Shown in pieces: positions 20,863-58,903 of a DNA stretch of 64,000 bases. Origin of the DNA: Streptococcus infantis ATCC 700779 (GTDB lineage: Bacteria > Bacillota > Bacilli > Lactobacillales > Streptococcaceae); NCBI RefSeq assembly GCF_000187465.1, contig NZ_GL732439.1, forward strand, positions 149,341-213,340, written 5' to 3'. Under the pieces are notes generated by a model. That model was given only the letters and a program-made list of their open reading frames with translations. It was not told the DNA's origin and ran no database searches. The translations under genes were made by a program, and so were the position numbers. Each line of letters begins with the position of its first letter. Position 1 is the stretch's first letter.

Positions 20863-21564
20863 ATGGGCTGGATTATTCGTGTGTTATGTCGGTTTTTACT
20901 AGGGATTTTACGTATGTTTTGGCGCCTTGTATGGACGCTTATCTTCTTCATTCTCATCACTTTTGGGATTCTCTGGTATGTGACAGGTAATTTACCTGCT
21001 ACTTTAAATCAAGTTAGCAAAGTGGTTCGAGTCGGCCAAGCAGGTTGGGATCAATGGCAAGAAACTGGCAAGTTGCAAGGTTTGTCTCAGACAGATCATC
21101 ATCAAGATTCAGGAGCAAAATGGTCAAAGGCGCAAGCAACTATCTATATTGATCCTCAAATGGATGCCACTTTCCAAAAGGCCTACCGTGAAGCAATTGC
21201 TAACTGGAACCAGACAGGGGCATTTAACTTTGAGCTTGTAACAGAAGCGGATCAGGCCGATATTTTCGCTACCGAAATGAATGATGGTTCGACAGCTGTA
21301 GCAGGTGAGGCGGAGAGTCAGACAAATCTCCTAACCAAACAATTCATTTCAGTGACCGTTCGCTTGAATCATTATTATCTATCCAATCCAAACTATGGAT
21401 ATACCGATGATCGTATCATGCATACAGCAGAGCATGAACTAGGTCATGCGATTGGTTTGGAACACACCAATGAAGTTTCGGTTATGCAACCAGCAGGCTC
21501 TTATTATGGAATCCAAGCTCAAGATGTAAAAGAAGTTCAAGAACTATATGAGTCTGGGGAATAA
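20863..21564 (+). CDS. Membrane-anchored matrixin-like zinc metalloprotease
   Basis: A 233-residue protein with a strongly hydrophobic N-terminal anchor (about residues 5-40), a Gln/Lys-rich linker, and a metzincin catalytic domain. The zinc motif HELGHAIGLEHT (HExxHxxGxxH) lies near residue 191-202, followed by the Met-turn VMQP. This is the peptidase M10A (matrixin-like) signature. The catalytic domain is predicted to face the outside of the membrane. The substrate is unknown. A good ribosome site (AGAAAGG) precedes the ATG. Confidence 0.85.
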   Translation: MGWIIRVLCRFLLGILRMFWRLVWTLIFFILITFGILWYVTGNLPATLNQVSKVVRVGQAGWDQWQETGKLQGLSQTDHHQDSGAKWSKAQATIYIDPQMDATFQKAYREAIANWNQTGAFNFELVTEADQADIFATEMNDGSTAVAGEAESQTNLLTKQFISVTVRLNHYYLSNPNYGYTDDRIMHTAEHELGHAIGLEHTNEVSVMQPAGSYYGIQAQDVKEVQELYESGE

Positions 21565-24809: not shown

Positions 24810-27065
24810 ATGAAAACATGGAAAGAAAAAATAGTACACTTTGCCATTAAGAATCGCAGAACTCCTCTAGAAAACCGCAGACGAGTTGGGAAAAGCCTTA
24901 GTCTCTTGGCTGTCATTCTCTTTGCTGTTTTTTTGGTTAACTTTGCGGTGATTATTGGTACGGGAAAGAAGTTTGGTGTTGACCTGGTCAAAGAAGCATA
25001 TAAGGTTCATCAAACAACTCGAACAGTCCCTGCTAAGAGGGGAACCATTTATGATCGTAATGGAACTCCGATTGCAGAAGATGCAACCTCCTACAATGTT
25101 TATGCGGTCATTGATAAGGATTATAAGTCTGCGAATGGAGATATTCTATATGTTGAGGAATCTCAGTACAATAAGGTAGCCGAAATTTTCCATAAGTACT
25201 TGGATATGGAGGAGACCTATGTCAAAGATCAACTCTCTCAACCCAATCTCAAACAGGTTTCCTTTGGTACTAAAGGAAATGGGATTACCTACGCAAATAT
25301 GATGTCCATAAAAAAGGATCTAGAAGCTGCCAAGGTTGAGGGAGTGGATTTTACCACAAGCCCCAATCGAAGTTATCCAAATGGGAAATTTGCTTCATCC
25401 TTCATTGGTCTAGCCCAGCTCCATGAAAATGAAGATGGTTCAAAGAGTCTTATTGGAACATCTGGTATTGAAAGCTCCTTGAATAGCTTGTTAGCAGGGA
25501 CAGATGGTATTATTACCTATGAAAAAGACCGTCTAGGTAATATCGTTCCTGGTACAGAACAAGTCACCCAACAGACCGTAAACGGGAAAGACGTCTATAC
25601 GACCCTATCTAGTCCTTTGCAGTCCTTTATGGAAAGTCAAATGGATGCCTTTCAAGAGAAAGTAAAAGGCAAGTATATGACAGCGACCTTGGTCAGTGCA
25701 AAGACCGGTGAAATCCTCGCTACCACCCAACGACCTACCTTTAATGCAGATACTAAAGAAGGAATCACTGAGGACTTTGTTTGGCGTGATATTCTTTATC
25801 AAAGTAACTATGAACCAGGATCAGCCATGAAGGTTATGACGTTAGCTTCTTCTATTGATAATAATACCTTCCCAAGTGGAGAATACTTCAATAGCAGTGA
25901 ATTTAAAATGGCGGATGCGACGACTCGAGATTGGGATGTTAATGATGGTTTGACTACTGGTGGGATGATGACTTTCTTACAAGGTTTCGCTCACTCCAGT
26001 AATGTTGGAATGAGTCTACTTGAACAAAAAATGGGAGATGCTACTTGGTTGGATTATCTAAAACGCTTTAAATTTGGGGTTCCAACTCGCTTTGGCTTGA
26101 CAGATGAATACGCTGGTCAACTTCCAGCTGATAATATTGTTAGTATTGCTCAAAGCTCATTTGGGCAAGGAATTTCAGTGACACAAACACAAATGCTTCG
26201 TGCCTTTACAGCTATTGCTAATGATGGAGTTATGCTGGAGCCAAAATTTATAAGTGCTATTTATGATACTAACAATCAGTCTGTACGTAAGTCACAAAAA
26301 GAAATAGTAGGAAATCCTGTTTCCAAAGAGACAGCAAGCACAACTCGAAATCACATGATCTTAGTTGGGACGGACCCTCTATATGGAACTATGTATAATC
26401 ACTACACAGGAAAGCCAATTATAACAGTTCCTGGACAAAATGTAGCCCTCAAGTCTGGTACAGCCCAAATCGCTGATGAGAAAAATGGAGGATACTTGGT
26501 TGGTTCTACCAATTATATTTTCTCAGTTGTGACTATGAATCCTGCTGAAAATCCTGATTTTATCTTGTATGTAACGGTTCAACAACCTGAACATTATTCA
26601 GGTATCCAGTTGGGAGAATTTACCACCCCAATCTTGGAGCGTGCTTCTGCGATGAAAGAATCTCTCAATCTTCAATCAACTGCTAAAAGTCTGGATCAGG
26701 TTACCACTACGACTAACTATGCTATGCCTTCGACAAAAGACTATAGCCCTGGAGATTTGGCAGAAGAACTACGACGTAACCTTGTTCAACCAATCGTTAT
26801 CGGTTCAGGAACGAAAATCAAAGAAAGTTCAGTGGCAGAAGGAACCAATCTAGACGCAAATGCGCAGATCTTACTCCTTTCTGACAAGGTAGAAGAGATG
26901 CCTGATTTGTATGGTTGGTCTAAGAAGAATGTCGAAACTTTTGCAAAATGGCTGGATATCGAAGTTGAATTTGAAGGTACAGGAGAAACTGTAAAAAAAC
27001 AAAGTGTTCGTACCAATACAGCTTTAAAAAATATACAGAAAATAAAAATAACTTTAGGAGATTAG
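24810..27065 (+). CDS. pbpX: Penicillin-binding protein 2X (septal transpeptidase)
   Basis: Class B PBP that cross-links septal peptidoglycan with FtsW; a primary beta-lactam target. A membrane anchor lies near residues 30-50, then the dimerisation domain, the transpeptidase domain and two C-terminal PASTA domains. The active-site motifs are S338-A-M-K (nucleophile Ser338), HSSN near 395-398, and KSGTAQ near 548-553. Penicillin-sensitive pneumococci have STMK; Thr to Ala at this position is a well-known low-affinity substitution. Length is 751 residues against 750 in the R6 reference as I remember it. Third gene of the division cluster. Confidence 0.97.
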
Positions 27066-29162: not shown

Positions 29163-30509
29163 ATGCCAATCACAGCTGCAGATATTCGTCGTGAAGTTAA
29201 GGAAAAAAATGTAACCTTTATCCGTCTCATGTTTTCAGATATTTTGGGAACAATGAAAAACGTCGAAATTCCTGCTACAGATGAACAACTAGACAAGGTC
29301 TTGTCAAACAAGGCTATGTTTGATGGATCTTCTATTGAAGGGTTTGTTCGTATCAATGAATCAGATATGTACTTGTACCCTGACCTGGACACTTGGACTG
29401 TCTTCCCTTGGGGAGATGAGAACGGTAGTGTCGCAGGATTGATCTGTGATGTCTATACAACAGAAGGAGTGCCATTTGCTGGAGATCCTCGAAGCAATCT
29501 TAAACGAGCTCTTCATCACATGGAGAAAGTTGGATTCAAATCTTTCAACCTTGGTCCGGAACCAGAATTCTTCCTATTCAAGCTTGATGAAAATGGAGAC
29601 CCAACTCTTGAGGTGAATGACAAGGGTGGTTACTTTGATTTGGCGCCTACAGACCTTGCCGATAATACCCGTCGTGAGATTGTAAATGTCCTGACTAAAA
29701 TGGGATTTGAGGTAGAGGCTAGTCACCACGAAGTTGCCGTAGGTCAACATGAGATTGACTTTAAGTATGATGAAGTTCTTCGTGCTTGTGACAAGATTCA
29801 AATCTTTAAACTTGTTGTAAAAACAATTGCGCGTAAACATGGTTTGTATGCAACCTTTATGGCTAAACCTAAATTTGGTATCGCTGGTTCAGGAATGCAC
29901 TGCAATATGTCCTTGTTTGATGATGAAGGGAACAACGCCTTCTTTGATCCAAATGATCCAAAAGGAATGCAATTGTCAGAAACAGCCTATCATTTCCTTG
30001 GTGGTTTGATCAAGCACGCCTACAACTACACAGCTATCATGAACCCGACAGTTAACTCATACAAACGTTTGGTTCCAGGGTATGAAGCACCTGTTTACAT
30101 CGCTTGGGCTGGTCGTAACCGTTCACCGTTGGTGCGCGTTCCTGCTACTCGTGGAATGGGAACACGTTTGGAATTGCGCTCAGTAGACCCAATGGCAAAT
30201 CCATATATCGCAATGGCTGTTCTTTTGGAAGTTGGTTTGCACGGTATTGAAAACAAAATCGAAGCACCAGCGCCAATCGAAGAAAACATCTATATCATGA
30301 CTGCAGAAGAGCGTAAAGAGGCTGGCATCACAGACCTTCCATCAACTCTTCACAACGCTTTGAAGGCCATGACAGAAGACGAAGTGGTTAAAGCAGCTCT
30401 AGGTGAACACATCTACACTAGCTTCCTTGAAGCCAAACGAATTGAGTGGGCAAGCTATGCAACCTTCGTTTCACAATGGGAAATTGATAATTATTTAGAC
30501 CTTTACTAA
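29163..30509 (+). CDS. glnA: Glutamine synthetase type I
   Basis: ATP-dependent amidation of glutamate with ammonia; forms dodecamers. Family motifs: [12 protein letters not shown] near 55, the ATP site region [19 protein letters not shown] near 234-252, and [18 protein letters not shown] near 297. 448 residues is the GSI-alpha type, which lacks adenylylation and is controlled by feedback and GlnR. AAGGAG precedes the ATG. Confidence 0.97.
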
Positions 30510-30582
30510 TAGAGAAGAAAGATTGTCTGAGGGTAAGCAGTCATACAGCAGTCTAAGCAATCGAATACTTATAACCCCTAAA

Positions 30583-30611
30583 TTAGCGATTTCGGTCGCT
30601 ATTTATTTTTC
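30583..30611 (+). terminator. glnA terminator
   Basis: TAGCGAtttcggTCGCTA stem followed by TTTATTTTT. Confidence 0.7.
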
Positions 30612-30819
30612 GAAAAATCCTCTTGATTCTTTTGCAAATTAAATCTATCATCAAACGTGTAGAAGAAAACCAAGGAGTCATTATAGAAAAATTCAATTTT
30701 GAAAACAATATCGGGAAAGAAAACAAACTGCCTCAAATCGAAATCTACAAGCTCACTAACTTTTGCAAGCTTCAAAATTACACATCTGTAAATATTTTTT
30801 TGAAAGATATATTTGAACC

Positions 30820-30926
30820 TATAGTGAATTGAGACTAGAATAGTACACTGCATCTGCTAAAACATTTCTAGAAATTAATTTAACTTTCCTAATCGATTTG
30901 TTCACATCTTATTTCAATCTACTATA
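30820..30926. repeat. RUP element (107-bp repeat unit of pneumococcus)
   Basis: The ends are inverted repeats: TATAGTGAATTGAGAC at the left and TTTCAATCTACTATA at the right. The distance from the outer T to the outer A is exactly 107 bp, the published RUP length. RUPs are thought to be mobilised in trans by an IS630-type transposase that targets TA. It sits between glnA and the silent hsdS cassette. Confidence 0.85.
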
Positions 30927-31199
30927 TTATCCCAATAAATGATGATGGCGATCGTTTTGTTTATGCTTGTCGATTTTTGAATCTTGAACGACCAGAAGAA
31001 TATTTCTGCCGAGGTTGCTAAACGAAAAAACCTGAAAATATTGAATTTTAGTACGAACAACTATAGGCAGAAAAAGTGGAGGTTTTGAATATTCGTTTGG
31101 AAGTAAAAAATTAAACTATCTACAATCTCATCAACAATAAACCTATTTTAACTCCATTATCTATAGGCATATTTTTACGCCTTTTTATATATTTGAAGC
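30927..31199. other. Decayed sequence between RUP and hsdS cassette
   Basis: No intact gene. A stop-broken plus-strand frame can be followed (fragments IPINDDGDRFVYACRF and AEKVEVLNIRLEV), suggesting an old pseudogene of unknown identity. Near 31186 the sequence becomes recognisable as hsdS. Confidence 0.4.
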
Positions 31200-31205
31200 A
31201 CATAA

Positions 31206-31235
31206 GAAACATTATGAGAAGTTTGCTGATGGAAG
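31206..31235 (+). repeat. Inverted repeat arm (30 bp), upstream of TRD1, silent copy
   Basis: Identical on the opposite strand to 35238-35267 within the active hsdS. It encodes KHYEKFADGS-like residues just before TRD1. Exchange here swaps TRD1 together with TRD2. Confidence 0.85.
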
Positions 31236-31695
31236 CACTCAAGAAATTGATGTTCCTTATGATATTCCTGAGAATTGGAAGTGGGTGAGGATAAAATCAA
31301 TTTATTGGAATTTTGGGCAAAATAAGCCAGAGAAATTCTTTAGGTATATAGATACGTCTAGTATTGATAGAAAAAAGAATATAATCAACTATAAAAATCT
31401 ACAATATCTTTCACCTGAACAAGCTCCTTCCCGTGCTAGAAAATTAGTTTCGCAGAATAGTGTCTTATTTTCAACAGTTAGACCATATCTAAAAAATATT
31501 GCTGTAGTTAGAGAACTTAAAGAGTATTTGATAGCTAGTACAGCATTTATTGTTTTGGATACTTTACTTAACGAAACATATTTGAAATATTATTTATTAT
31601 CAGATAATTTTATCAATCGTGTTAATAATAAATCTACTGGAACAAGTTATCCTGCAATCAATGATTATAATTTTAATCTATTGTTAATTGCTATC

Positions 31696-32004
31696 CCTCC
31701 GCTAGCCGAACAACAACGAATAGTAGAAGTAATCGAATCAGCTTTAGAAAAAGTAGATGAATATGCTGAAAGTTATAATAGACTAGAACAGCTAGATAAA
31801 GAATTTCCAGATAAACTAAAAAAATCTATTCTTCAATATGCTATGCAAGGAAAATTAGTTGAACAAGACCCAAATGATGAATCAGTCGAAGTTTTACTTG
31901 AAAAAATACGAGCAGAAAAACAAAAACTCTTCGAAGAAGGCAAGATTAAAAAGAAAGATTTAGAGATTTCAATTGTTTCCCAAGGAGATGATAACTCTTA
32001 TTAT
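31696..32004 (+). repeat. Inverted repeat arm (309 bp), between TRD1 and TRD2, silent copy
   Basis: Near-identical on the opposite strand to 34427-34735. The first 74 bp (31696-31769) are perfect, followed by a more divergent ~34-bp stretch, then a perfect 56-bp block (31804-31859) and long blocks with isolated mismatches. It encodes the conserved central helices of HsdS. Confidence 0.9.
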
Positions 32005-32528
32005 GAGGAAGTACCAAATACTTGGCAACTTTTTAAATTAAAAAATTTATTGCAATTGGATAATGGAACTAAACAACAAAATGAACGTCTTATTTATTGG
32101 GATGTAAAGACTTTACGAGGGATTAAGGATGCTGAATTTAAAGAAAAAGGCAATAAAGTACATTCAAAAGATACAGTAATTCTTGTAGATGGAGAAAATT
32201 CAGGAGAGTTATTTATAATACCTCATGATGGATATATGGGGTCAACGTTTAAGAAAATTCACTATCTAGAAGCTGGGTCAAAGAAATATATAGATTTATA
32301 TATAGACAGTAAAAAAGAACTTTTAAAAAATTCAAAAACTGGATCTGCGATCCCTCATCTTAATAAAACATTATTTAAAGAACTTATAGTCGCCCTTCCT
32401 CCAATCCAAGAACAAAAACGTATATCAAGTAAAATCACTCAAATATTCTCACAAATTAATCGACTAATTTAGTATAATAGTTTTACGTGCGGTGGAATTT
32501 CTATCAAACATAAGATAGGAGTTTTACG

Positions 32529-33326
32529 TTGAAAGATTTTGAATTACATTTGAAGAAAGATGGTTTAGCTGAAAATACTGTGCGTTCGTACCTTTATGGT
32601 GTTCGATTTTTCTTGGAGAATTACGAACTCAAAATGGAAGATTTATTTGAATACAAGGGATATTTATTAGACAATTTTAAACCTAAAACTGTCAATTTGC
32701 GCCTACAAGGAGTAAATAAATATCTGGTCTTTATTGGTCATGATGATTTGAAATTAAAATTTGTCAAAGTACAGCAAAAACCGTTTTTAGAAGATGTCAT
32801 TAGCCATGCTGATTACCTTTTTCTTAAACGTAGTTTGAAAAAAGATGGTATTTTAAAATGGCATTTTGTCGTTTGGTTTTTAGGTGCAACTGGGGCTCGT
32901 GTAAGTGAACTTATTAAACTAAAAGTAGAGCATGTAGAAATCGGTTATTTTGACATTTACTCAAAAGGTGGTAAAATTCGTAGACTGTACATTCCTAAAA
33001 AATTAAGAAATAGTTGTCTTAGTTGGTTAGAATCAGAAAATCGCCGAAGTGGTTATTTATTTTTGAATAAATTTAACGAACCAATTACAGCAAGAGGAGT
33101 TGCTCAACAGTTAAAAAATTATGCAGATAAATACAAAATGAATTCTAAAGTAGTCTATCCTCATTCTTTTAGACATTTATTTGCTAAGAATTTTTTAGCG
33201 AAGTATAACGATATTGCTTTGCTAGCAGATTTGATGGGGCATGAAAGTATAGAAACTACTCGAATTTATCTAAGAAAAACAGCTACCGAACAACAAAATA
33301 TTGTAGATAAAATTGTTAATTGGTAA
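32529..33326 (+). CDS. creX: Tyrosine recombinase of the hsdS inversion system
   Basis: A 265-residue phage-integrase-family recombinase. Catalytic residues: Arg124 (GARVSEL), His212 and Arg215 (HSFRH), His238 (MGHES) and Tyr247 (TRIYL), all present. It has a short SAM-like N-terminal core-binding domain. The start is TTG with AGGAG nine bases upstream. It sits between the two silent hsdS cassettes, as CreX (also called PsrA/IvrR) does in pneumococcal SpnIII, where it promotes inversion between hsdS repeats. The gene itself lies inside the 309-bp inversion interval, so it flips with the DNA it inverts. Confidence 0.92.
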   Translation: MKDFELHLKKDGLAENTVRSYLYGVRFFLENYELKMEDLFEYKGYLLDNFKPKTVNLRLQGVNKYLVFIGHDDLKLKFVKVQQKPFLEDVISHADYLFLKRSLKKDGILKWHFVVWFLGATGARVSELIKLKVEHVEIGYFDIYSKGGKIRRLYIPKKLRNSCLSWLESENRRSGYLFLNKFNEPITARGVAQQLKNYADKYKMNSKVVYPHSFRHLFAKNFLAKYNDIALLADLMGHESIETTRIYLRKTATEQQNIVDKIVNW

Positions 33327-33371
33327 AAAAATAACAGGTGGTCAAATTGACTATCTGCTATTTTTTTGTGA

Positions 33372-33945
33372 TTATGGCTCTTATTATGGGAATATACCTA
33401 TGAATTGGGTTGTTATAAAAATAAAAGATATTTTTTCAATAAATACAGGTCTTTCTTACAAGAAGGGCGATTTAAGCATTAATAATAAAGGTGTTAGAAT
33501 TATACGTGGTGGTAATATTAAGCCTTTAGAATTTTCTCTTTTAGATAATGATTACTACATTGATACACAATTCATCTCCTCTGAGCAAGTTTATTTAAAA
33601 CATAATCAGCTAATAACACCTGTATCAACCTCTTTAGAACATATTGGAAAGTTTGCAAGAATCGATAAAGATTATGATGGTGTTGTGGCTGGTGGATTTA
33701 TTTTCCAATTAACACCATTCGAAAGTTCAGAGATTACTTCAAAATTTCTATTATTTAACTTGTCCTCTCCGTTATTTTATAAACAATTGAAATCAATAAC
33801 TAAACTATCAGGTCAAGCTTTATATAATATTCCTAAAACTACACTGAGCGAGCTATTAATTCCGTTAGCTCCTTTTGAGGTACAGGAACTTATTACTCAG
33901 AAAGTTGAGAAACTTTTTGAAAAAGTAAGTCAATTCCCTGAGTAA
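33372..33945 (+). pseudogene. hsdS'': Silent hsdS cassette 2 (TRD2 only)
   Basis: A partial specificity gene with a single C-terminal target-recognition domain. It opens at GSYYGNIPMNWVVIKIKD, which aligns to NSYYKQLPRNW of the active gene, and ends EKLFEKVSQFPE, matching the active C-terminus QKVSQLSE. It has no start signal of its own; the frame runs upstream into the end of creX. Its TRD differs from the other two TRD2s. It is convergent with the active hsdS and the two frames overlap tail to tail by 53 bp. It fills the hsdS'' position of the SpnIII locus. Confidence 0.8.
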
Positions 33946-33947
33946 TA
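33891..33947. repeat. Imperfect palindrome encoding both convergent hsdS C-termini
   Basis: The outer 10 bp arms TATTACTCAG/CTGAGTAATA are perfect; the inner arms match at about 12 of 18 positions around a central G. Each strand encodes the last ~17 residues and stop of an HsdS. Confidence 0.75.
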
Positions 33948-35458
33948 CGCATTTGTTCATTCCTAGGTAATACAGGAATCAATATGTTCCCCAAGTTATT
34001 TTTACTAACACCTCCAATTATTCCAGATTTATTTTTTTGGAAATCACTTAAAAATTGTGGACTTTGAAGAAAATAATAAAGAAATTTATTTTCTCCGTAG
34101 TAAAATGATAAATTGCACAACTTATTACCAAAGCAGACATCTTGTTTCAACAGTCCTATTTTGCGTCCAGCACTGCCACCTTCTAAGCACAGCAATACAG
34201 AATTGAAATAGCTAATTTTGAATTTTGACAAATAGTTATCGGGAATTCTAATGCCGTTATCATAATTAATGGTATTATCAAAATTGACATCCTTGGTAGC
34301 AATATAATTAATCCCATCTACTCCAGAAAAATATTTTTTCTTTTCAGTAGAGTTAATACTATTTCCAGTGTAGAGATTGGAGACGCTGTCTAGAGTTGAA
34401 AGCATCCAGTTTCTCGGTAACTGCTTATAATAAGAGTTATCATCTCCTTGGGAAACAATTGAAATCTTCAAATCTTTCTTTTTAATCTTGCCTTCTTCAA
34501 AGAGTTTTTGTTTTTCTGCTCGTATTTTTTCAAGTAAAACTTCGACTGGTTCATCATTTGGGTCTTGTTCTACTAATTTTCCTTGCATAGCATATTGAAG
34601 AATAGATTTTTTTAGTTTATCTGGAAAAATTTTATCTAACTTTTGTAGTTGATTGTAGCTCTCAGCATATTCATCTACTTTTTCTAAAGCTGATTCGATT
34701 ACTTCTACTATTCGTTGTTGTTCGGCTAGCGGAGGCAATAGCATAGGAACTTCATATTTTAAAAATTTTATTGAAGCTAAATTTTTTATCGCTGAACCTA
34801 TAGAATGCTCTTTTAGTGTATTAATCAAACTCGTAAACATCCATTTAAAATACTGTGAATCTATTATATCTGAGTTTAACGTAAGTTTTAATAATGCTTG
34901 ATTTATAACTCCATTATAATAATTTGAAGGTATTTGAAAGATTTCTCCAATAGTACCTGCACAAGATATTAAAATATCTCCTGCTTTTATTGAAAAATTT
35001 TTTAAACGTATATAATCACTCTCTTTTAACCAATAGTCTCCATAATCTATAGTTTTTCTTATAGCATTACCTTGTTCATAAACCTTATATGTATGTTCTC
35101 CTTTCGGAACAAACATTGACTTTGTTATAGAACTACCAAAAGGACCTCTTTTTATTGAGCCGTCCTCTAATGCACAAATGTCTGGTAAATAAACTATGGC
35201 CCATCCTTTAGGTATATTATGTTTAAACTCTTTTATACTTCCATCAGCAAACTTCTCATAATGTTTCCCATCATCACCACGAAATATCTCGGTTTCCTTT
35301 TTATCTCGTTTGATTTTTCCTTCACTGATAAGTTTTTCTTTTTCAGCTTTAATTCTCTTTAACAATTCACTTGCAGGTTCGTCATTGGGATTTTGCGGCA
35401 CTAATTTCCCTTCCATCGCTCTTTGGAGAATGCTTGCTTTAAGTTGTTCTGGTGTCAT
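33893..35458 (-). CDS. hsdS: Type I restriction-modification specificity subunit, expressed copy
   Basis: DNA-recognition subunit of the HsdR2M2S complex. 521 residues: N-terminal conserved helix (MTPEQLKASILQRAMEGKL), TRD1 (from IPKGWAIVYLPDICALEDG), central conserved helices (LPPLAEQQRIVEVIESALEK to YAMQGKLVEQDPNDEP), TRD2 (from LPRNWMLSTLDSVSNLYTG), then a short C-terminal helix. The central region carries internal similarity to the N-terminal region, as in all HsdS. It overlaps hsdM by one base (TAATG) with GGAGG before it, so translation is coupled. Its TRDs can be replaced from the silent cassettes through inverted repeats at 35238-35267, 34427-34735 and a 10-bp core at 34427-34436. Confidence 0.95.
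   Translation of the reverse strand: MTPEQLKASILQRAMEGKLVPQNPNDEPASELLKRIKAEKEKLISEGKIKRDKKETEIFRGDDGKHYEKFADGSIKEFKHNIPKGWAIVYLPDICALEDGSIKRGPFGSSITKSMFVPKGEHTYKVYEQGNAIRKTIDYGDYWLKESDYIRLKNFSIKAGDILISCAGTIGEIFQIPSNYYNGVINQALLKLTLNSDIIDSQYFKWMFTSLINTLKEHSIGSAIKNLASIKFLKYEVPMLLPPLAEQQRIVEVIESALEKVDEYAESYNQLQKLDKIFPDKLKKSILQYAMQGKLVEQDPNDEPVEVLLEKIRAEKQKLFEEGKIKKKDLKISIVSQGDDNSYYKQLPRNWMLSTLDSVSNLYTGNSINSTEKKKYFSGVDGINYIATKDVNFDNTINYDNGIRIPDNYLSKFKISYFNSVLLCLEGGSAGRKIGLLKQDVCFGNKLCNLSFYYGENKFLYYFLQSPQFLSDFQKNKSGIIGGVSKNNLGNILIPVLPRNEQMRITQGIDLLFQKVSQLSE
34427..34735 (-). repeat. Inverted repeat arm (309 bp), active hsdS copy
   Basis: Partner of 31696-32004. Inversion between them moves about 2.4 kb including creX and cassette 2 and exchanges TRD2. 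Confidence 0.9.
35238..35267 (-). repeat. Inverted repeat arm (30 bp), active hsdS copy
   Basis: Partner of 31206-31235. Inversion between them moves about 4.0 kb and exchanges TRD1 and TRD2 together. Confidence 0.85.
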
Positions 35459-36921
35459 TATTTGTCCTCCAACAACTGCAAAATATCAGCTAATACATTA
35501 TCAATCTTATGATTTAAAGTTGCTCTTTCCGCTTGATAATTCTGAATCAACTCAAAGGGATTTAAGATTTCCTCTTCCTCTTTTGGAAAACCACACTGGT
35601 CTAAATTATAATTCAACTCAGCCAATTCACTAGGTGTAAATGATTTAGATTTGTAGAACTTACCTTCCAGAATCTCTTCACGATTTTCCCACCAGTCACG
35701 AACAGGATTGAAGTGTTCTGACTTCATCGGCTTAGTTTTCGAGAAATTTTTATAACCATCTGGCATATCTAAACGATAAAACCAAGTTTCTTCTGTTTTC
35801 TTTGTTTTATCAAAGAAAAGAATGTTCGTATGGATTCCTGTATACGGTGCAAAGACACTATGAGGCAACCTAATAATCGTATGCAAGTTGAACTCATCTA
35901 CCAGTTTTTGTTTCAAGCGAGTTTTTACACCTTCACCAAATAGAAAACCATCAGGTAAAATAACTCCAACACGACCATTTTCTTTCAAACGATACATAAT
36001 GACAGCCATAAATAAATCAGCCGTTTCAGAACTCCGTAATTCTGCTGGAAAGTTATTTTTTATTGTTTCTAATTCTGACCCTCCAAAAGGTGGATTCATC
36101 ATAATAATGTCAAATTTTTCATCATCCGTATATTCACGAACATTTTTCTCCAAAGTATTTCCATGAACAATTTTAGGGTCATCGATTTCGTGAAGAAACA
36201 GATTTGTAACTGCTAAAAGATGAGGAAATGCTTTCTTTTCAATACCAAAAACAGCTGTATTATATTTTTTGGTATCTTCACTAGTTTTACGTTGACTACT
36301 TAAACGGTTCAGAGTCGAAGTTAAGAAGCCTCCTGTTCCGCAAGCAAGGTCTGCCATTGATTCTCCAAGCTTTGGGTCAAGAACTTCGGCGATAAAATCA
36401 GTCGCTGCACGTGGCGTATAAAATTCTCCTGAGTTGCCAGCATTTTGAATATCTTTAAGAATTTTTTCGTAAATATCATTAAACGAATGACGATCTTCAG
36501 GGCTATTGAAATCAACTTCATCAATAACATTGATGACTTGGCGTAACAAGACGCCATTTTTCATATAGTTGTTCGCATCTTCAAAAGCTGATTTAACAAT
36601 CGTTTTTCGAATAGGCATATTTGAAGTTATTTCAAGCTCTTTCAACTCTTTGAATAACTTGTTATTGACAAAATCAAGTAATTCATCGCCTGTCAATACC
36701 CGTTCCCCATTTTGAGCATGAGCCCAATTCCGCCATTTTAATTCCTCTGGGATAATTGACTCATACTCGTCTTCTTCTAATTCCCAAACCATTTCACGGC
36801 TATCATAAATTTTTAAGAATAATAACCAAGACATTTGCTCAATACGTTGAGCATCACCATTAACACCAGCATCGTTTCGAGTGATATCTTGAATTCTTTT
36901 TACAAATGATGTAATTGACAT
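35458..36921 (-). CDS. hsdM: Type I restriction-modification DNA methyltransferase subunit
   Basis: N6-adenine methyltransferase of the type I complex. Residues 1 to about 150 are the HsdM N-terminal helical domain; the SAM motif ADLACGTGGFLTSTL lies near 190-204 and the catalytic MMNPPFGGSELE near 275-286. 487 residues is normal. It begins 12 bp after hsdR ends, with AAAGGAAAG as ribosome site. Middle gene of hsdR-hsdM-hsdS. Confidence 0.96.
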   Translation of the reverse strand: MSITSFVKRIQDITRNDAGVNGDAQRIEQMSWLLFLKIYDSREMVWELEEDEYESIIPEELKWRNWAHAQNGERVLTGDELLDFVNNKLFKELKELEITSNMPIRKTIVKSAFEDANNYMKNGVLLRQVINVIDEVDFNSPEDRHSFNDIYEKILKDIQNAGNSGEFYTPRAATDFIAEVLDPKLGESMADLACGTGGFLTSTLNRLSSQRKTSEDTKKYNTAVFGIEKKAFPHLLAVTNLFLHEIDDPKIVHGNTLEKNVREYTDDEKFDIIMMNPPFGGSELETIKNNFPAELRSSETADLFMAVIMYRLKENGRVGVILPDGFLFGEGVKTRLKQKLVDEFNLHTIIRLPHSVFAPYTGIHTNILFFDKTKKTEETWFYRLDMPDGYKNFSKTKPMKSEHFNPVRDWWENREEILEGKFYKSKSFTPSELAELNYNLDQCGFPKEEEEILNPFELIQNYQAERATLNHKIDNVLADILQLLEDK

Positions 36922-36933
36922 ACTTTCCTTTCA

Positions 36934-39267
36934 TTAAGCTACTGTAAATAGCTCTTTCTCCAATTCTTTAATTGCTTGTAAATATCGTTTTTTATCTCCA
37001 AAATAAGTATTGATGATTTTGAAGGTTCCACCATATATCTGAAATTCTGGAAGTTTTAATGTTTCAATGCTTTCGAGTTCTCCAATACCTTTATCCATGT
37101 ATTTGTCCAGTAAAATTTCCAAAACAGCACGCGCTTCCTCACTATATTTATATAAATATCCGCTTTGTTTGAGTTTATTGACACGTTCCGTTTTGGTTAA
37201 TTCTTTTTGACCATAGGCAAGTTTTAGGAGTAAATCAAAATCATCGATTTCTTGTTCTGATATTCCCTCCGACTCTCGAATAGCATCTAGATAAACTCCT
37301 TTTTTATAAAGTTCGTCTAAGATAAGCTTCTTTTTATCCGCCGTATGCCAAACTGTGATAAAATCGTTCAAAGTGGCGTAGCTACCTAAGATATTCTTCC
37401 GAGTGTAGTCGGTCAGGCTTTCGGTAATCAGTTTCCCATTTTCGTCCAATACTTGAACAGTAGAATTAAGAATGGTAACCTGCTTATCTGTAACGATATA
37501 TTTTTCTACTGGGTCACCACCTTCGTTTACAAAACCAGGTGTAGTACCATTGTTTGTTTTTGCGCCCGTTTCCAGAACCTTCACTGGTTCACCATCAAAA
37601 TCAGGGTCAGCAAACAAATTGGTAACATTTCGAAAATCAATAATCGTAAAAAATTCTTTCCCCTTTTGAGGATAAAGACGTGTGCCACGACCAATAATTT
37701 GTTTAAATTCAGTCATGGATTGGATATTAGAGTCTAAAACAATCAAACGACATGTTTTAGCATTAACTCCTGTCGTTAATAATTTAGACGTTGTTACAAT
37801 AGCGGGAAAATTAGAATTGACATCCATAAAGTTATCCAGTTGAGCTTTTCCTTCAGCGTTGTCACCAGTTACTTGCATGACATAACGATAGTCTTCTTGG
37901 ACTAAGTCTAGATTCTCTTTTACAAGCGCAGCACGCATTCGCTCGGCATGGTCAATATCAACACAAAAAACAATTGTCTTATCAAATCGTGCATTGTTTT
38001 GCTTCATATAATCAGAAACAAACTTGGCAACTCTTTGCGTTCTATCATCAATGACAATGGTTTTGTCAAAATCTTTCCTGCCGTAGTACCTATCTTCTAT
38101 TAATTGTCCGTTAGTATCAACTTTTCCAGTTTCTGGACGATAACCATCCACATCCACATCTAAATTAACCCTCATAACACGATATGGAGCCAAAAAACCA
38201 TCCTCGATTCCCTGTTTTAAACTATAAGTATAGATTGGCTCACCAAAGTATTCCATATTGGAAGCATTCTTGGTTTCTGTAGGAGTAGCGGTCATCCCAA
38301 TTTGTGTAGCAGAACTGAAATAATCAATCACCTTGCGCCAGTTACTGTCTTCCTTAGCTGAGCCACGGTGCGCTTCATCAATTATGATTAAATCAAAGAA
38401 ATCTTTGTCGAACTTTTGATAATGTGTTTCAGTTCCATCTTCACCAGTTAGTTGCTGATAAAGCCCCAGATAAATTTCAAAAGAATTTAATTTTTCAGGA
38501 GCAGTCAAAAGTTTTGGTGTAATTTTCGTCATTACCTTTTCGAATGGCTTAAAGTCTTCAGCCATCGTTTGGTCTACTAAGATGTTTCTATCCGCTAAGA
38601 ATAAAACTCGTTTAGCCAAACCAGCTTTTCGAAGGCGATGAATAATTTGAAAAGCCATGAACGTTTTCCCCGTTCCTGTTGCCATCACAAACATTACTCG
38701 TTTTTGTCCTCTGGCAACTGTTTCAATAGTACGGTTGATAGCTATTTGCTGATAATAGCGTGGCGTTTTCATTGAGAAGGCGTCTGTATAGTATGGAGTT
38801 GAGATAGCTTCTGTAATTTCGTACGTCAATCCTTTTTCCTTCGTCATACGAGAAAATAATTCTTCACGAGTAGGGAATTCGTCTAACTCCAGTTCACGTT
38901 CTTCTCTCGTGATACGGTCGTGTTCAATAAAGCCATCACCATTCGAAGAATAAACAAATGGAACATCTAAAATCTCTCCATATTCAATAGCTTGTTGTAA
39001 TCCTGCTCGAACGCTGTGTTTATTATCCTTTGCCTCAACAATTGCAATTCGAGTTCCAAATTGGTAATACAGTGAGTAGTCTGATTTTTTTCCTTCTTTA
39101 CGTCGAGCCTTATCTCCTCTAACCTCAATTCGACCATCAGTGAAGTATTCTTCGTAAGCGATATGCTCACCATTTTTCCATCCTTTGGATACAATAGCAG
39201 GAGTGATGAAATTTGCTTTAATATCCTCCTCACTCATTTCTTTCTTAGACTTTATAAACTCAACCAT
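36934..39267 (-). CDS. hsdR: Type I restriction endonuclease / translocase subunit
   Basis: ATP-driven DNA translocase and nuclease. A PD-(D/E)xK-like nuclease core lies near residues 60-82 (KKSDYSLYYQF then IAIVEAKDNK). Walker A MATGTGKTFMAF sits near 195-206, DEAH box IIDEAHRGS near 295, GMTATPTE near 322, and motif VI IGRGTRLYPQKGK near 510. 777 residues is the short HsdR form seen in streptococci. GGAGGG precedes the ATG. First gene of the leftward operon; a possible -10 TATAAT is at 39336-39341 on the minus strand. Confidence 0.95.
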   Translation of the reverse strand: MVEFIKSKKEMSEEDIKANFITPAIVSKGWKNGEHIAYEEYFTDGRIEVRGDKARRKEGKKSDYSLYYQFGTRIAIVEAKDNKHSVRAGLQQAIEYGEILDVPFVYSSNGDGFIEHDRITREERELELDEFPTREELFSRMTKEKGLTYEITEAISTPYYTDAFSMKTPRYYQQIAINRTIETVARGQKRVMFVMATGTGKTFMAFQIIHRLRKAGLAKRVLFLADRNILVDQTMAEDFKPFEKVMTKITPKLLTAPEKLNSFEIYLGLYQQLTGEDGTETHYQKFDKDFFDLIIIDEAHRGSAKEDSNWRKVIDYFSSATQIGMTATPTETKNASNMEYFGEPIYTYSLKQGIEDGFLAPYRVMRVNLDVDVDGYRPETGKVDTNGQLIEDRYYGRKDFDKTIVIDDRTQRVAKFVSDYMKQNNARFDKTIVFCVDIDHAERMRAALVKENLDLVQEDYRYVMQVTGDNAEGKAQLDNFMDVNSNFPAIVTTSKLLTTGVNAKTCRLIVLDSNIQSMTEFKQIIGRGTRLYPQKGKEFFTIIDFRNVTNLFADPDFDGEPVKVLETGAKTNNGTTPGFVNEGGDPVEKYIVTDKQVTILNSTVQVLDENGKLITESLTDYTRKNILGSYATLNDFITVWHTADKKKLILDELYKKGVYLDAIRESEGISEQEIDDFDLLLKLAYGQKELTKTERVNKLKQSGYLYKYSEEARAVLEILLDKYMDKGIGELESIETLKLPEFQIYGGTFKIINTYFGDKKRYLQAIKELEKELFTVA

Positions 39268-39860
39268 ATTGAACCCTCCGCATTCTAAAAATCTACTCCT
39301 CCATAAAATAAACTATCAGAACAAATTATACTTCTATTATATCATATTTATAAAAATACTCTGCTAAATTGTTGAAAATAAGTATACAATATACTTTAGC
39401 ATCGAGTCAGATTATCTCCGCATAACACCGCTATTTTTCGCTGTTTTCGGCAGGCGACTTATTATCATTCTACAAGCACTTTCAGTCGGGCTGGTGAGCT
39501 ATTTTTCAAAAATAAATAATCACATTTAAACATTTTGAAAGTATAAAATATCTACATCAGCCGTTCAAAAATTGGCGTAAATTTTACCATAATATTTTTG
39601 TTTAAATAAAGATTTTTTTATGTCAAACGGATTTTAACAATGCGGATGCTTCCTATTTTGCTTCTCTTTTTACGCTACTACCGGTTTTCTCAAAGTTTGT
39701 CAGTGGAGGTAGTTCTTTCAGTTGGGGAATGTTTTTGATTGTTATCATAGACTGTACTTTATTGATAGTTTTCACGATTCAGATTTTTTATATTTTTTGG
39801 AGATTGTTTCAAAAGTGGAGAGAATTATCTGATAAATAAAACCATTTTGGAGGTTAGACA
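39268..39860. other. Intergenic region between hsdR and the DUF2812 gene
   Basis: The first ~100 bp hold the hsdR leader and promoter (minus strand). The middle (39360-39600) shows no gene and no clear repeat. The last ~220 bp hold a truncated membrane-protein frame described separately. Confidence 0.5.
39621..39838 (+). pseudogene. 3' remnant of a small membrane protein gene
   Basis: An open frame with no start codon until late and an in-frame stop just upstream; it reads as a hydrophobic segment (FSWGMFLIVIIDCTLLIVFT) and ends in FQKWRELSDK. This looks like the tail of a gene whose front was deleted. It ends 22 bp before the DUF2812 gene and may have been its operon partner. Confidence 0.4.
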
Positions 39861-51057: not shown

Positions 51058-52209
51058 ATGAGAAGAAGCATAAAACCTTTTGTAGTCTATCTTTTCTTTC
51101 TCCTTGTGATAGGTGGTTTGATTTTTTTGGATCATCAACATCATCGACAGGCAGATGTGCAAGTAGAAAAAGCTGAGAAAACTACTCAAACCAGTGAAAC
51201 AGATAAGGAAAAGGTTGTTGAAGATAGATTAGCCACAATGACCTTGGAGGAGAAAGTCGGGCAATTATTCTGGGCTAGAGTTCCTGCCGATCATCAAATA
51301 GAAGATCTCAAATCCTATCATTTGTCTGGTTATATCTTATTTGGACGAGATTTTGAAGGACGAACCTTAGAGGATATGAAAGTTTTGACAAGTCGCTACC
51401 AAGCCGCTTCAAAGACTCCTTTATTGATTGGTTCCGATGAAGAAGGAGGAACAGTAACTCGTATCAGTTCTATTTTGGATACTTCTTTCCAATCTCCTAT
51501 GACCCTTTATCATCAAGGAGGGATGGAGGATGTTCTTTCTGATACTAGGAAAAAGGCAGAGGTGCTGAAATCTGTTGGTATCAATGCTGGACTCTTTCCA
51601 GTTGCGGATCTTGCAGGTGATTCATCAGCCTTTATTTACGATCGGACCATCGGACAAGATGCCCAAACAACTGCAAGTTATGTTAAGCAAGTTGTAGAAG
51701 AACTTCAAAAGAATAAGGTCGGTTCAACCTTGAAGCATTTCCCAGGGTATGGTGATAATGGAGACAGTCATACCGACATTATCCAAGACAACCGCTCTTT
51801 GGAAGATTTAAGACAAGCAGATTTTCTACCCTTTCAAGCTGGCATAGATGCAGGTGCGGATAGTATTTTAATTTCTCACAACATCCTGACTAAAATTGAT
51901 ACAGTGCCGTCATCTATCTCGCCAAAAATCAACGAAATTCTTCGCAAGGAGCTGAATTTTAAAGGTGTCATAATGACGGATGATTTAGATATGGCAGGAT
52001 TAGCCGATTTTGTCAGTCAGGATGAAGCTGCTCTCCAGGTAATATTAGCTGGAAATGATCTAATCCTAGGTTCTTCCTACCAAACTCAGATTCCTTATCT
52101 ATTAAAGAAAATTTCTTCTGGGGACTTGACAGAAGAACGTATTGATGAGTCTGTAAGACGTATTTTAGCATGGAAATATGACTTGGGATTATTCGATATG
52201 TCTCAGTAA
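51058..52209 (+). CDS. Glycoside hydrolase family 3 protein (beta-N-acetylhexosaminidase-like)
   Basis: A secreted or membrane-anchored GH3/NagZ-like enzyme. N-terminal hydrophobic anchor (VVYLFFLLVIGGLIFL, about 9-24), a Glu/Lys/Thr linker, then the GH3 barrel: KHFPGYGDNGDSHTD near 225-239 (NagZ signature with His replaced by Tyr in FPGHG) and nucleophile-bearing VIMTDDLDMAGL near 304-315. 383 residues from the chosen ATG at 51058. The frame is open 25 codons upstream, but a TGGTATAAT extended -10 ends 10 bases before this ATG, which places the start here. Confidence 0.85.
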   Translation: MRRSIKPFVVYLFFLLVIGGLIFLDHQHHRQADVQVEKAEKTTQTSETDKEKVVEDRLATMTLEEKVGQLFWARVPADHQIEDLKSYHLSGYILFGRDFEGRTLEDMKVLTSRYQAASKTPLLIGSDEEGGTVTRISSILDTSFQSPMTLYHQGGMEDVLSDTRKKAEVLKSVGINAGLFPVADLAGDSSAFIYDRTIGQDAQTTASYVKQVVEELQKNKVGSTLKHFPGYGDNGDSHTDIIQDNRSLEDLRQADFLPFQAGIDAGADSILISHNILTKIDTVPSSISPKINEILRKELNFKGVIMTDDLDMAGLADFVSQDEAALQVILAGNDLILGSSYQTQIPYLLKKISSGDLTEERIDESVRRILAWKYDLGLFDMSQ

Positions 52210-52336
52210 AAGGAAACGTCATTTATAAAATCATGCAGAAACCTTTGAAGGAAAGCCTTCTATTGGTTGTGAAAAGGTCAAATCCTTGCAGGTTGGATTG
52301 ATTTGTGTTATACTAATAACAAGAATATAAGAAAGA

Positions 52337-52360
52337 GAGGCGGGGAGATATCTTCGCCTC
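52337..52360 (+). promoter_or_regulatory. Hairpin in the rimP leader
   Basis: GAGGCGgggagatatcttCGCCTC stem-loop lying 15-38 bp before the rimP start; a candidate leader structure of the rimP-infB operon. Confidence 0.45.
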
Positions 52361-52374
52361 TTGCTTATGAGGAG

Positions 52375-52854
52375 GTGGACGCAATCGCAACTATCGTTGA
52401 ATTAGTCAGAGAAGTCGTAGAACCTGTTATTGAAGCTCCTTTTGAACTCGTAGATATCGAGTACGGAAAGATTGGCAGTGACATGATTCTTAGTATTTTT
52501 GTAGACAAGCCTGAAGGAATCACCTTGAATGATACGGCAGACTTGACTGAAATTATCAGTCCTGTCCTAGATACTATCAAGCCGGATCCCTTCCCAGAAC
52601 AATATTTCCTAGAAATAACAAGTCCAGGATTGGAGCGTCCTTTGAAAACCAAGGAAGCAGTCGCTGGAGCGGTTGGGAAATACATCCATGTCGGGCTCTA
52701 TCAAGCCATCGATAAGCAAAAGGTTTTTGAAGGAACCTTGTTGTCCTTTGAAGAGGATGAGTTAACTATGGAATATATGGATAAAACTCGCAAGAAAACA
52801 GTCCGAATTCCATATAACTTGGTATCAAAAGCACGTTTAGCAGTAAAATTATAG
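52375..52854 (+). CDS. rimP: Ribosome maturation factor RimP
   Basis: Required for 30S assembly. It shows [20 protein letters not shown] near residues 23-42 and [12 protein letters not shown] near 82-93, the family signature. The GTG at 52375 gives the known N-terminus [13 protein letters not shown]; the frame is open upstream but that part is not conserved. The ribosome site GAGGA abuts the start unusually closely. 159 residues. First gene of rimP-nusA-ylxR-ylxQ-infB. Confidence 0.93.
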
Positions 52855-52895
52855 AAAGAAAGGATAACTTTTGAGAATTCAAAAGTAAAAAGAAC

Positions 52896-54032
52896 ATGAG
52901 TAAAGAAATGCTAGAGGCCTTCCGCATTTTGGAAGAAGACAAGGGAATCAAGAAAGAAGATATCATCGACGCAGTCGTAGAATCACTTCGTTCTGCTTAC
53001 CGTAGACGCTATGGTCAATCTGATAGTGTAGCTATTGATTTCAACGAAAAGACAGGGGACTTTACTGTCTATACTGTCCGTGAAGTTGTTGATGAAGTAT
53101 TTGATAGCCGTTTGGAAATCAGTTTAAAAGATGCCCTTGCTATTAATTCAGCCTATGAGCTTGGTGACAAAATCAAATTTGAAGAGGCACCAGGGGAGTT
53201 TGGTCGTGTAGCAGCCCAATCTGCGAAACAAACAATCATGGAAAAAATGCGTAAGCAAACACGTGCCATTACCTACAATACATACAAAGAGCATGAACAA
53301 GAAATCATGTCAGGTACAGTAGAACGTTTTGACAACCGCTTCATTTATGTCAATCTTGGCAGCATCGAAGCCCAATTGTCTAAACAAGACCAAATTCCTG
53401 GAGAAGTTTTTGCTTCTCATGACCGTATTGAAGTCTATGTCTACAAAGTGGAAGACAACCCTCGTGGAGTTAACGTTTTTGTAAGTCGTAGCCATCCAGA
53501 AATGATCAAGCGTTTGATGGAACAAGAAATTCCAGAAGTGTACGATGGAACTGTTGAAATCATGAGCGTAGCCCGTGAAGCAGGTGACCGTACAAAGGTT
53601 GCTGTTCGTAGTCACAATCCTAACGTGGATGCTATCGGAACAATCGTTGGACGTGGTGGAGCGAACATCAAGAAAATCACTAGCAAATTCCACCCAGCTC
53701 GCTACGATGCTAAGAGTGACCGCATGGTACCGGTAGAAGAAAACATCGACGTTATCGAGTGGGTAGCAGATCCAGCTGAGTTTATTTACAATGCTATTGC
53801 TCCTGCTGAAGTTGACCAAGTTATCTTTGATGAAAATGACAGCAAACGTGCCTTAGTCGTTGTGCCGGATAACAAACTATCACTTGCTATCGGTCGTCGT
53901 GGACAAAATGTTCGCTTAGCAGCACATTTGACTGGTTACCGTATCGATATCAAGTCTGCAAGTGAATTTGAAGCTATGGAAGAAGCAGGTCAAGTGGATT
54001 ACGCTGAAACAGACGAATTGACTGAAGAATAA
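52896..54032 (+). CDS. nusA: Transcription termination/antitermination factor NusA
   Basis: Binds RNA polymerase and nascent RNA. N-terminal domain (1-125), S1 domain (about 130-200), then two KH domains including [15 protein letters not shown] near 251-265 and [17 protein letters not shown] near 331-347. 378 residues: the Firmicute form without C-terminal acidic repeats. AGAAAGGA lies well upstream. Confidence 0.96.
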
Positions 54033-54053
54033 GATCTGCTATAGGAGGGAAAG

Positions 54054-54347
54054 ATGAAAACAAGAAAAATCCCTTTGCGCAAGTCTGTTGTTTCCAACGA
54101 TGTGATTGACAAGCGAGATTTACTTCGTATTGTCAAGAATAAAGAAGGTGAGGTCTTTATCGACTCGACAGGCAAGGCTAATGGCCGGGGTGCTTATATC
54201 AAGCTAGACAATGCAGAAGCCCTAGAGGCTAAAAAGAAAAAAGTCTTTAACCGTAGCTTTAATATGGAAGTCGAAGAAAGCTTTTATGACGAGTTGATCG
54301 CCTATGTTGATCACAAAGTAAAAAGAAGAGAGTTAGGACTTGAATAA
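54054..54347 (+). CDS. ylxR: YlxR family RNA-binding protein
   Basis: 97 residues, basic, with IPLRKSVVSN (Cys of the usual RKC motif replaced by Ser) and GRGAYIK near 43-49. Recent work on family members links YlxR to RNase P control (RnpM). GGAGGG precedes the ATG; it overlaps ylxQ by eight bases. Confidence 0.92.
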   Translation: MKTRKIPLRKSVVSNDVIDKRDLLRIVKNKEGEVFIDSTGKANGRGAYIKLDNAEALEAKKKKVFNRSFNMEVEESFYDELIAYVDHKVKRRELGLE

Positions 54348-54639
54348 GCAAAAAGTAAGTAATCTCTTGGGATTGGCTCAGCGAGCAGGGAAAATCATCT
54401 CGGGTGAAGAAATGGTAGTCAAAGCCATTCAAGACCGGAAAGTTAAATTGGTATTTCTAGCTTATGATGCTAGCCCAAATCTAACCAAGAAGATTCAGGA
54501 TAAAAGCCACTATTATCAAGTAGAAGTTATTACCGTGTTTTCAACACTGGAATTAAGCATAGCAGTCGGGAAATCAAGAAAAGTTTTGGCTGTGACAGAT
54601 GCTGGATTTACAAAGAAAATGAGGTCTCTTATGGAATAG
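54340..54639 (+). CDS. ylxQ: YlxQ, L7Ae-family RNA-binding protein
   Basis: 99 residues; [19 protein letters not shown] near 9-27 and [18 protein letters not shown] near 35-52 are the L7Ae/L30e fold signature. TTG start overlapping the end of ylxR, implying coupling. It probably binds a kink-turn RNA. Confidence 0.92.
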
Positions 54640-54655
54640 AAGAGGAGGACATGAT

Positions 54656-57397: not shown

Positions 57398-57647
57398 GAT
57401 TTTTGCTCCTTTCTTAGGTGGTGTGGGACGCAAGCAAACCCAAGGTTTCATTGCTTATTTTTGAGCCTAGAGTCTCAAAAATCCCCAGTGATTGAACTGA
57501 ATGATCAGCCCAATCACTTTCACCACGGCGAAAGAAGCGGATGATTTCAAATTGAACTTCGTTTCAATTTGAATTGAAAATCAATAAGTTTAAAAATAGC
57601 TAGGTCTGCTGGCCTAGCTTTTGATTCAATAGAGAGGAAGGAATAGC
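57398..57647. other. infB-rbfA intergenic region
   Basis: 250 bp without a gene: the repeat copy at 57413-57486, a second inverted pair (CAAATTGAA...TTCAATTTG near 57550-57572), a GCTAGG/CCTAGC hairpin at 57598-57624, and the rbfA ribosome site GAGAGGAAGG. Confidence 0.5.
57413..57486 (-). repeat. Intergenic repeat copy B
   Basis: Reverse-complement relative of 42242-42318 (see copy A), with the same TTTTTGAG/CTCAAAAA stem. Confidence 0.65.
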
Positions 57648-57998: not shown

Positions 57999-58024
57999 GA
58001 AAGAGGGATAACCCTCTTTTTTGT
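57998..58024 (+). terminator. rbfA terminator
   Basis: AAGAGGGataaCCCTCTTTTTT stem with T-run. Confidence 0.88.
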
Positions 58025-58116
58025 ATAAAAAATAAGGCAGCGGGTGAAAACGCTTTATATTTTTTTAAATATGTGGTATGATATTGTATAATATAAAATT
58101 TAAGGGAGATATTAAA

Positions 58117-58896: not shown

Positions 58897-58903
58897 TAGG
58901 AAG

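Follow-up and report, generated by a model that had tools for sequence, protein, structure and literature searches.

A Streptococcus close to S. infantis carries a probable counterpart of the pneumococcal SpnIII/ivr inverting Type I restriction-modification locus

Is the inverting Type I restriction-modification (RM) locus of Streptococcus pneumoniae, known as SpnIII, ivr or cod, confined to the pneumococcus? Its switching has been tied there to capsule, colony opacity and virulence (PMC4948785; PMC4190663), and the cited passages of a comparative study describe the complete locus only in S. pneumoniae strains, and as missing from the commensal species examined, including S. infantis (PMC6722419). 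The question is raised by a stretch of 64,000 nucleotides from Streptococcus infantis ATCC 700779 (the window), in which a sequence-only reading had recognized a phase-variable hsdS locus of the SpnIII/ivr class. That assignment held in our analysis: with a probability of roughly 0.92, the pneumococcal inverting locus has its counterpart here, in a Streptococcus close to S. infantis, as judged from gene order, recombinase family, chromosomal neighbours, three classes of inverted repeat (IR) and the permuted target recognition domains (TRDs) of relatives. The locus is intact, and we infer that it very probably switches in the window strain.

Positions 31206-35458 (Table 1) hold a complete hsdS gene, two cassettes of partial hsdS sequence and the gene of a tyrosine recombinase that is intact; coordinates and gene families agree with the sequence-only reading, and intact hsdM and hsdR genes stand upstream of the hsdS and cassette region. 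The minus strand carries hsdR, hsdM and hsdS from 39267 to 33896, and the plus strand carries cassette 2, the recombinase gene and cassette 1. The Methylase_S stretches reproduce the TRD layout that had been proposed, with one TRD1 and one TRD2 in the active gene (TRD1-a and TRD2-a), a second of each in cassette 1 (TRD1-b and TRD2-b) and a third TRD2 in cassette 2 (TRD2-c). All the motifs sought in HsdR and HsdM, which we presume to have a role in these subunits, were found. A loss-of-function lesion in the recombinase, which had been named as grounds for abandoning the proposal, was looked for and none was found: R124, K149, H212, R215, H238 and Y247, which we take to be the catalytic set, are all present (PsrA Y247A being named in PMC7096588). 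The enzyme is 98% identical to the recombinase of G039, a genome with a pneumococcal-type locus, and 98-100% identical to those of S. infantis STn400 and S. taonis. The whole locus is placed between glnA and hrcA-grpE-dnaK, with GlnA (29163-30509) and PBP2X on one flank and HrcA (40488), GrpE (41573), DnaK (42372) and DnaJ on the other, each above its NCBIfam cut-off. This chromosomal site, adjoining glnA and near dnaK, is the same as that of the pneumococcal locus, which adjoins glnA in a survey of pneumococcal loci and in which the hsd genes are SPD_0450-0455 and dnaK is SPD_0460 (PMC4190663).

Three classes of inverted repeat link the active gene and the cassettes. Each is reduced in length or in sequence agreement relative to the pneumococcus, where 85, 333 (or 298) and 15 bp are given (PMC4190663; PMC4948785); G039 has repeats of 85 bp and 15 bp (CTCTTATTATGGGAA, in L038, one end of its contig). 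Eleven of the 16 mismatches between the window's IR2 arms cluster at 31770-31803. The recombinase would invert DNA between the active hsdS and the two silent cassettes, inversion at IR1 exchanging TRD1 and TRD2 together, at IR2 exchanging TRD2 with cassette 1 and at IR3 exchanging TRD2 with cassette 2, and other pathways probably also act at the long repeats, as reported in the pneumococcus. A configuration model of these inversions yields eight DNA configurations and six alleles; Li et al. (2016; PMC4948785) likewise describe eight arrangements arising through inversions. The shared repeats stand in the same reading phase in the partner genes, as computed from frames and lengths, and six open alleles of 521 (a+a, the present state), 499, 529, 507, 485 and 515 aa are therefore predicted, which bears out the six TRD combinations foreseen by the earlier reading and could provide six HsdS proteins with six methylation specificities. 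With repeats weaker than the pneumococcal ones, the six states may differ in frequency. The cassettes are presumed to be silent and each allele to methylate, and six methylomes and six expression states might follow.

The permuted arrangements were found in relatives. The recombinase gene occurs (E <= 1e-50) in 12 of 284 genomes of the genus; S. azizii (G059), a 4.4-kb contig with no site and another repeat, was left out of the site comparison, and 11 remained, G039 being counted once though both ends of its contig were read. The window was compared with 11 loci from 10 genomes. The loci of S. infantis STn400 (L051, from genome G220) and S. taonis ST22-14 (L045) hold the same three TRD2s and TRD1-b as the window in different slots, with another second TRD1 in place of TRD1-a in STn400. 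STn400 carries the window segment 33370-34444 inverted at 99.3% identity, a reciprocal swap of the same two TRD2s that is bounded on both sides by CTCTTATTAT and is not a repeat misassembly, because this 10-bp boundary is too short; its TRD2-a differs from the window copy by one base right after the core. Its active gene combines TRD1-b and TRD2-c (515 aa), cassette 2 holds TRD2-a, and cassette 1 holds the other TRD1 and TRD2-b. The S. taonis locus is colinear with window positions 31206-34570 (cassette 1, recombinase, cassette 2) at 98.6% and is joined to hsdM through TRD1-b/TRD2-b, its active HsdS measuring 485 aa; the contig ends inside IR2, with the second TRD1 beyond its end. Both lengths agree with the predictions for b+c and b+b, and each of the three TRD2s holds the active slot in one of the three genomes. 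In the configuration model S. taonis lies one IR1 inversion from the window and STn400 three, one per repeat, when its other TRD1 is read as the TRD1-a slot. A further exchange is seen in G039, where the two ends of the contig (L037 and L038) share some 7 kb of sequence, apart from a few mismatches and gaps, and a 1086-bp segment, 100% identical and bounded by the 15-bp CTCTTATTATGGGAA, stands in opposite orientations, most simply explained by inversion heterogeneity in the sequenced population. The overlap itself, with its fold-back and opposite IR3 orientations, probably reflects a mixed population that left its mark on the assembly.

In the window a 15-bp IR3 of the pneumococcal kind is absent: the two partner sites agree in 12 of 15 bases, and the complete site stands at cassette 2 only. 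They share a 10-bp core, CTCTTATTAT (33378-33387 and 34427-34436), which occurs four times in the 64-kb window against 0.27 expected, three times at the three TRD2 starts, four copies being reached in none of 100 shuffles. The fourth copy, at 21498-21507 outside the locus, is probably due to chance. In every one of the 11 loci the three TRD2 starts carry one and the same core, CTCTTATTAT in seven loci and CTCTCCTTAT in four, and the core type, CTCT(TA or CC)TTAT, switches as a set between loci (7 TA, 4 CC); S. sanguinis KO16 has a CC-type core together with a 97%-identical recombinase. At the IR3 pair the five bases right of the core match in 5 of the 11 loci, and a mismatched pair with the core kept is found in the other six. 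IR1 bears a matching CATTAT or CCTTAT in 10 of the 11, one IR1 arm each being listed for L045 and S. suis HCJ31 (L047); the exception is G228, whose recombinase is frameshifted. Given the relatedness of the loci and the conserved residues that the sites encode, the counts are not independent, and the pattern behind the site table, which returned three TRD2-start sites in each of the 11 loci, admitted some core codons only and would have passed over other forms. The published CreX core is ATTATGGGAA, with the 5 bp upstream also playing a role (PMC6620402). We tentatively suggest, at rather worse than even odds, that the strand-exchange region might be the 10-bp core CTCT(TA or CC)TTAT, whose overlap with ATTATGGGAA is confined to the left half of the latter, and that the right half (GGGAA) might be dispensable. 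If so, TRDs with varied 3' flanks would be accepted, and one TRD library could circulate between commensal and pathogenic streptococci, which would share whole alleles.

Should the lost right-hand bases of IR3 matter after all, the locus would be partly locked, keeping its switching at IR1 and IR2 and leaving TRD2-c stranded, with four states instead of six, which is the number of alleles that the model gives without IR3. The restriction of the full 15-bp site to cassette 2 points in this direction, as does the pneumococcal 15-bp inversion, which is described as strictly CreX-dependent and as abolished or impaired by single-base changes (PMC6620402, citing Li et al.). However, STn400 and the window differ by exactly an IR3 exchange despite a mismatched TRD2-a site in both (GAGCA or AAGCA versus GGGAA), and the same combination of mismatched pair and intact core recurs in the six loci mentioned above; we regard a partly locked locus as unlikely. 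A TRD2-c unreachable through a broken 15-bp IR3 was dropped as the principal interpretation, the reciprocal STn400 exchange speaking against it.

Several observations weigh against a locus that switches through all three repeats. IR1 is exact over 30 bp compared to 85 in the pneumococcus, and IR3 partners that agree at 12 of 15 positions sit uneasily with the reported single-base sensitivity. The IR2 arms of STn400 differ at 4 of 309 positions; because they are nearly alike, the phase of that locus across IR2 may be misassembled, in which case IR1 and IR3 exchanges would be required and an IR2 exchange would not, and the arms are too similar for an IR2 crossover to be localized from mismatches. 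The ends of G039 are imperfectly assembled, with glnA present twice in a fold-back in L037 and the hsdM-side hsdS broken after 135 aa in L038. The host's own assembly has one locus copy in one arrangement, and a search of this genome for the junction between the active gene and TRD2-c turned up the pattern in its cassette 1 copy and nowhere else. The compared arrangements belong to sister genomes and not to the window strain (identities to STn400 of 97.6% for glnA, 95.8% for hrcA and 83.5% for pbp2X), and TRDs imported by transformation might instead account for parts of the pattern. The low pbp2X value (window 24810-27065), next to that of the nearby glnA, indicates a mosaic that probably arose by interspecies exchange.

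Carried further, import by transformation would make the locus a frozen relic, in which uptake of whole TRD blocks and not inversion permuted the TRDs of the relatives. Movement between species is clear, since HsdM and HsdR of the window are 100% and 98.1% identical to those of G039 while glnA, hrcA and grpE reach 81-89% at the DNA level, and the active IR2 arm next to TRD1-a is odd, with 16 mismatches to the window's cassette arm where the active arm of STn400 has none. Nevertheless, the STn400 exchange runs both ways and has the 10-bp core as its limit on either side, each TRD2 is active in one of three genomes, both IR3 orientations occur within one G039 contig, and the window recombinase is intact; a relic seems very improbable to us. 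That the locus belongs to another of the phase-variable Type I systems of streptococci, SsuCC20p or tvr/SpnIV, is extremely improbable: although SsuCC20p is also a recombinase-dependent hsdS switch of several streptococci (PMC10790761), the position, recombinase and repeats of the window locus are those of ivr, though no search for tvr features was made. With up to 1 mismatch allowed, the 14-bp SsuCC20p repeat TAAATCATCATTTA is absent from the window; with 2 allowed, it occurs once (1.6 expected), and SsuCC20p membership was rejected.

The exchange between species can be followed in the identities to the window. The hsdM and hsdR genes are 98.9-99.9% and 97.6-99.8% identical in six genomes (L051, L045, G228, L046, G039 and G176), 93-94% in S. 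sanguinis KO16 and 77-80% in S. entericus, S. suis HCJ31 and S. gallolyticus BSJ31. The flanking DNA of G228, L046, G039 and G176 is more diverged, at 87.9-88.7% for glnA, 81.2-82.2% for hrcA and 84.9-86.2% for grpE, with less contrast for dnaK (92.9-95.1%), of which 11-75% of the length was read in three of the four. Near-identical hsdM and hsdR between diverged flanks argue that the locus has been exchanged across species at a shared site. The flanks of STn400 and S. taonis are closer to the window (hrcA 95.8 and 94.9%), and for positions 52001-60000 the closest of seven genomes is G220 (95% over 5.4 kb, 86% over 2.4 kb).

Which sequences the alleles might recognize can be predicted in part. 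The sequence-only reading had held that the TRD set could not be matched; this does not apply to TRD1-b and TRD2-c, which are 96% identical to TRDs of the pneumococcal-type locus in G039. For TRD1-a, TRD2-a and TRD2-b, clustering gave no match among the G039 TRDs. The TRDs of G039 measure 163 and 157 aa (TRD1) and 185, 186 and 186 aa (TRD2). Li et al. (PMC4948785) list alleles A1-A5 of 1566, 1569, 1569, 1551 and 1551 bp, with motifs CRAAN8CTT, CRAAN9TTC and CRAAN8CTG for A1-A3 and CTG common to A3 and A4, and Manso et al. (2014; PMC4190663, Table 1) assign CAC to TRD1.2 and CTT to TRD2.3. The 173-aa constant part of the window plus the G039 TRDs reproduces all five lengths, A5 being read here as CAC + TTC, which identifies the 157-aa TRD1 as the CAC domain and the 185-aa TRD2 as the CTT domain. 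TRD2.3 is also the shortest pneumococcal TRD2 in the survey coordinates from which we computed lengths, 16 of the 17 spans shown being 544-554 bp and one 576, against 558-565 for TRD2.1/2.2. TRD1-b is thus predicted to specify a CAC and TRD2-c a CTT half-site, predictions that depend on G039 being pneumococcal-type, as supported by its repeat and allele lengths. The b+c allele of STn400 would then recognize CACN7CTT, that of pneumococcal allele F, the spacer being assigned by analogy with SpnIIIF. A search of solved structures returned HsdS relatives (best matches 3okg for cassette 1, 3.7e-34, and 1yf2 for the active gene, 1.2e-11) and no motif for TRD1-a, TRD2-a or TRD2-b. A survey of 19 pneumococcal loci describes, in the part cited, the five known TRDs only; L046, titled S. 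pneumoniae 19F (a title on which we do not rely), has a TRD2 in cluster TRD2-4, outside all G039 clusters. TRDs were picked by sequence patterns, so the clusters do not include those with other borders, the TRD1 in the G228 cassette among them.

Table 1. Features of the hsd locus in the window
Feature	Position	Strand	Remarks
hsdR, restriction subunit, 777 aa	36937..39267	-	EcoAI/FtnUII family model above cut-off; ATGTGKT, DEAH and EAK found
hsdM, N6-adenine methyltransferase subunit, 487 aa	35461..36921	-	DLACGTG and NPPF found; identical (100%) to G039 HsdM
hsdS in active position, 521 aa: constant N-terminus, TRD1-a, central repeat, TRD2-a	33896..35458	-	
TRD1-a, 171 aa, active position	34724..35236	-	95% to TRD1 in silent cassette of S. 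sanguinis KO16
TRD2-a, 177 aa, active position in window	33896..34426	-	in cassette 2 in S. infantis STn400
IR1, active-gene arm	35229..35267	-	30 bp exact at 35238-35267
IR2, active-gene arm, 309 bp	34427..34735	-	
IR3 partner at active TRD2 start, CTCTTATTATAAGCA	34422..34436	-	10-bp core kept, right 5 bp diverged
Cassette 1, presumed silent, without hsdS N-terminal module	31206..32472	+	starts at IR1; two Methylase_S stretches
IR1, cassette arm	31206..31244	+	30 bp exact at 31206-31235 (39 nt at 90%)
TRD1-b of cassette 1, 157 aa	31237-31707	+	predicted CAC half-site
IR2, cassette 1 arm, 309 bp	31696..32004	+	16 mismatches to active arm
Third TRD2-start site, cassette 1, CTCTTATTATGAGGA	31995..32009	+	
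TRD2-b of cassette 1, 155 aa	32005-32469	+	
CreX/PsrA-type tyrosine recombinase, 265 aa, TTG start	32529..33326	+	between the two cassettes
Cassette 2, presumed silent; mechanically called ORF	33313..33945	+	one Methylase_S stretch
Terminator-like hairpin and T run	33335..33357	+	between recombinase stop and TRD2-c; pattern match only
IR3 site of cassette 2, CTCTTATTATGGGAA	33378..33392	+	full 15-bp form found in G039
TRD2-c of cassette 2, 185 aa	33388-33942	+	predicted CTT half-site

Terminator-like patterns number 6 in 30500-39600 compared to 3.8 +/- 1.9 in shuffles, and a promoter-like pattern scan was uninformative (43 seen, 39.6 +/- 5.6 in shuffles). Between glnA and cassette 1, the window (30560-31200) is without a long open reading frame (ORF), and S. 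sanguinis KO16 has a 127-aa frame in the aligned part (L050 12842-13225). Elsewhere in the host genome (G000:C1:1237939-1238334) a weak Methylase_S match of 21.2 bits, under the 22-bit cut-off, possibly marks another Type I system. In G228 (L077 8653-9279) a frameshift leaves the recombinase with a 208-aa open frame in a 794-base match and the remaining locus is present, which makes it a natural recombinase mutant. Recombinases of 60-80% identity (L052-L067) occur in Streptococcaceae, Sporosarcina, Lactobacillus, Lachnospiraceae, Veillonella, Fibrobacter and Prevotellaceae records, mostly metagenome bins, and ATTAT lies within inverted repeats in five of the six such loci examined for repeats.

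What is new here is a known type of system in a host where a published comparison reported none, together with three TRDs that lack a G039 match. A literature search limited to open-licence papers found no report of the locus in S. infantis, the literature drawn on also including PMC7394358, PMC7557576 and PMC12548398, and the loci of the window, STn400 and S. taonis extend or contradict PMC6722419 for the S. infantis group. That genomes of this group have a complete and seemingly functional copy, with identical HsdM and two shared TRDs, implies that carrying the switch does not by itself mark a pathogen; the copy offers a natural comparison for the role of each allele in hosts other than the pneumococcus and suggests that the locus is exchanged between species. 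Among known systems, SsuCC20p of S. suis also depends on a recombinase for hsdS inversion in several streptococci but, unlike the window locus, is described with four TRDs, different 14-bp repeats and a prophage region (Roodsant et al., 2023; PMC10790761), and tvr/SpnIV, to go by the title of a paper, is a phase-variable pneumococcal Type I system that works by excision and reintegration. The window locus lies outside the SpnD39III enzyme set proper (motifs A-F), two of its five TRDs (TRD1-b and TRD2-c) matching those of G039. Compared to SpnIII/ivr/cod (SpnD39III, Spn556II), its IR1 is exact over 30 bp and not 85, its IR2 has 16 mismatches in 309 bp and its IR3 is a 10-bp core and not 15 bp, whereas the order hsdR-hsdM-hsdS, one-TRD cassette, recombinase and two-TRD cassette, the position next to glnA and the three repeat classes are common to both.

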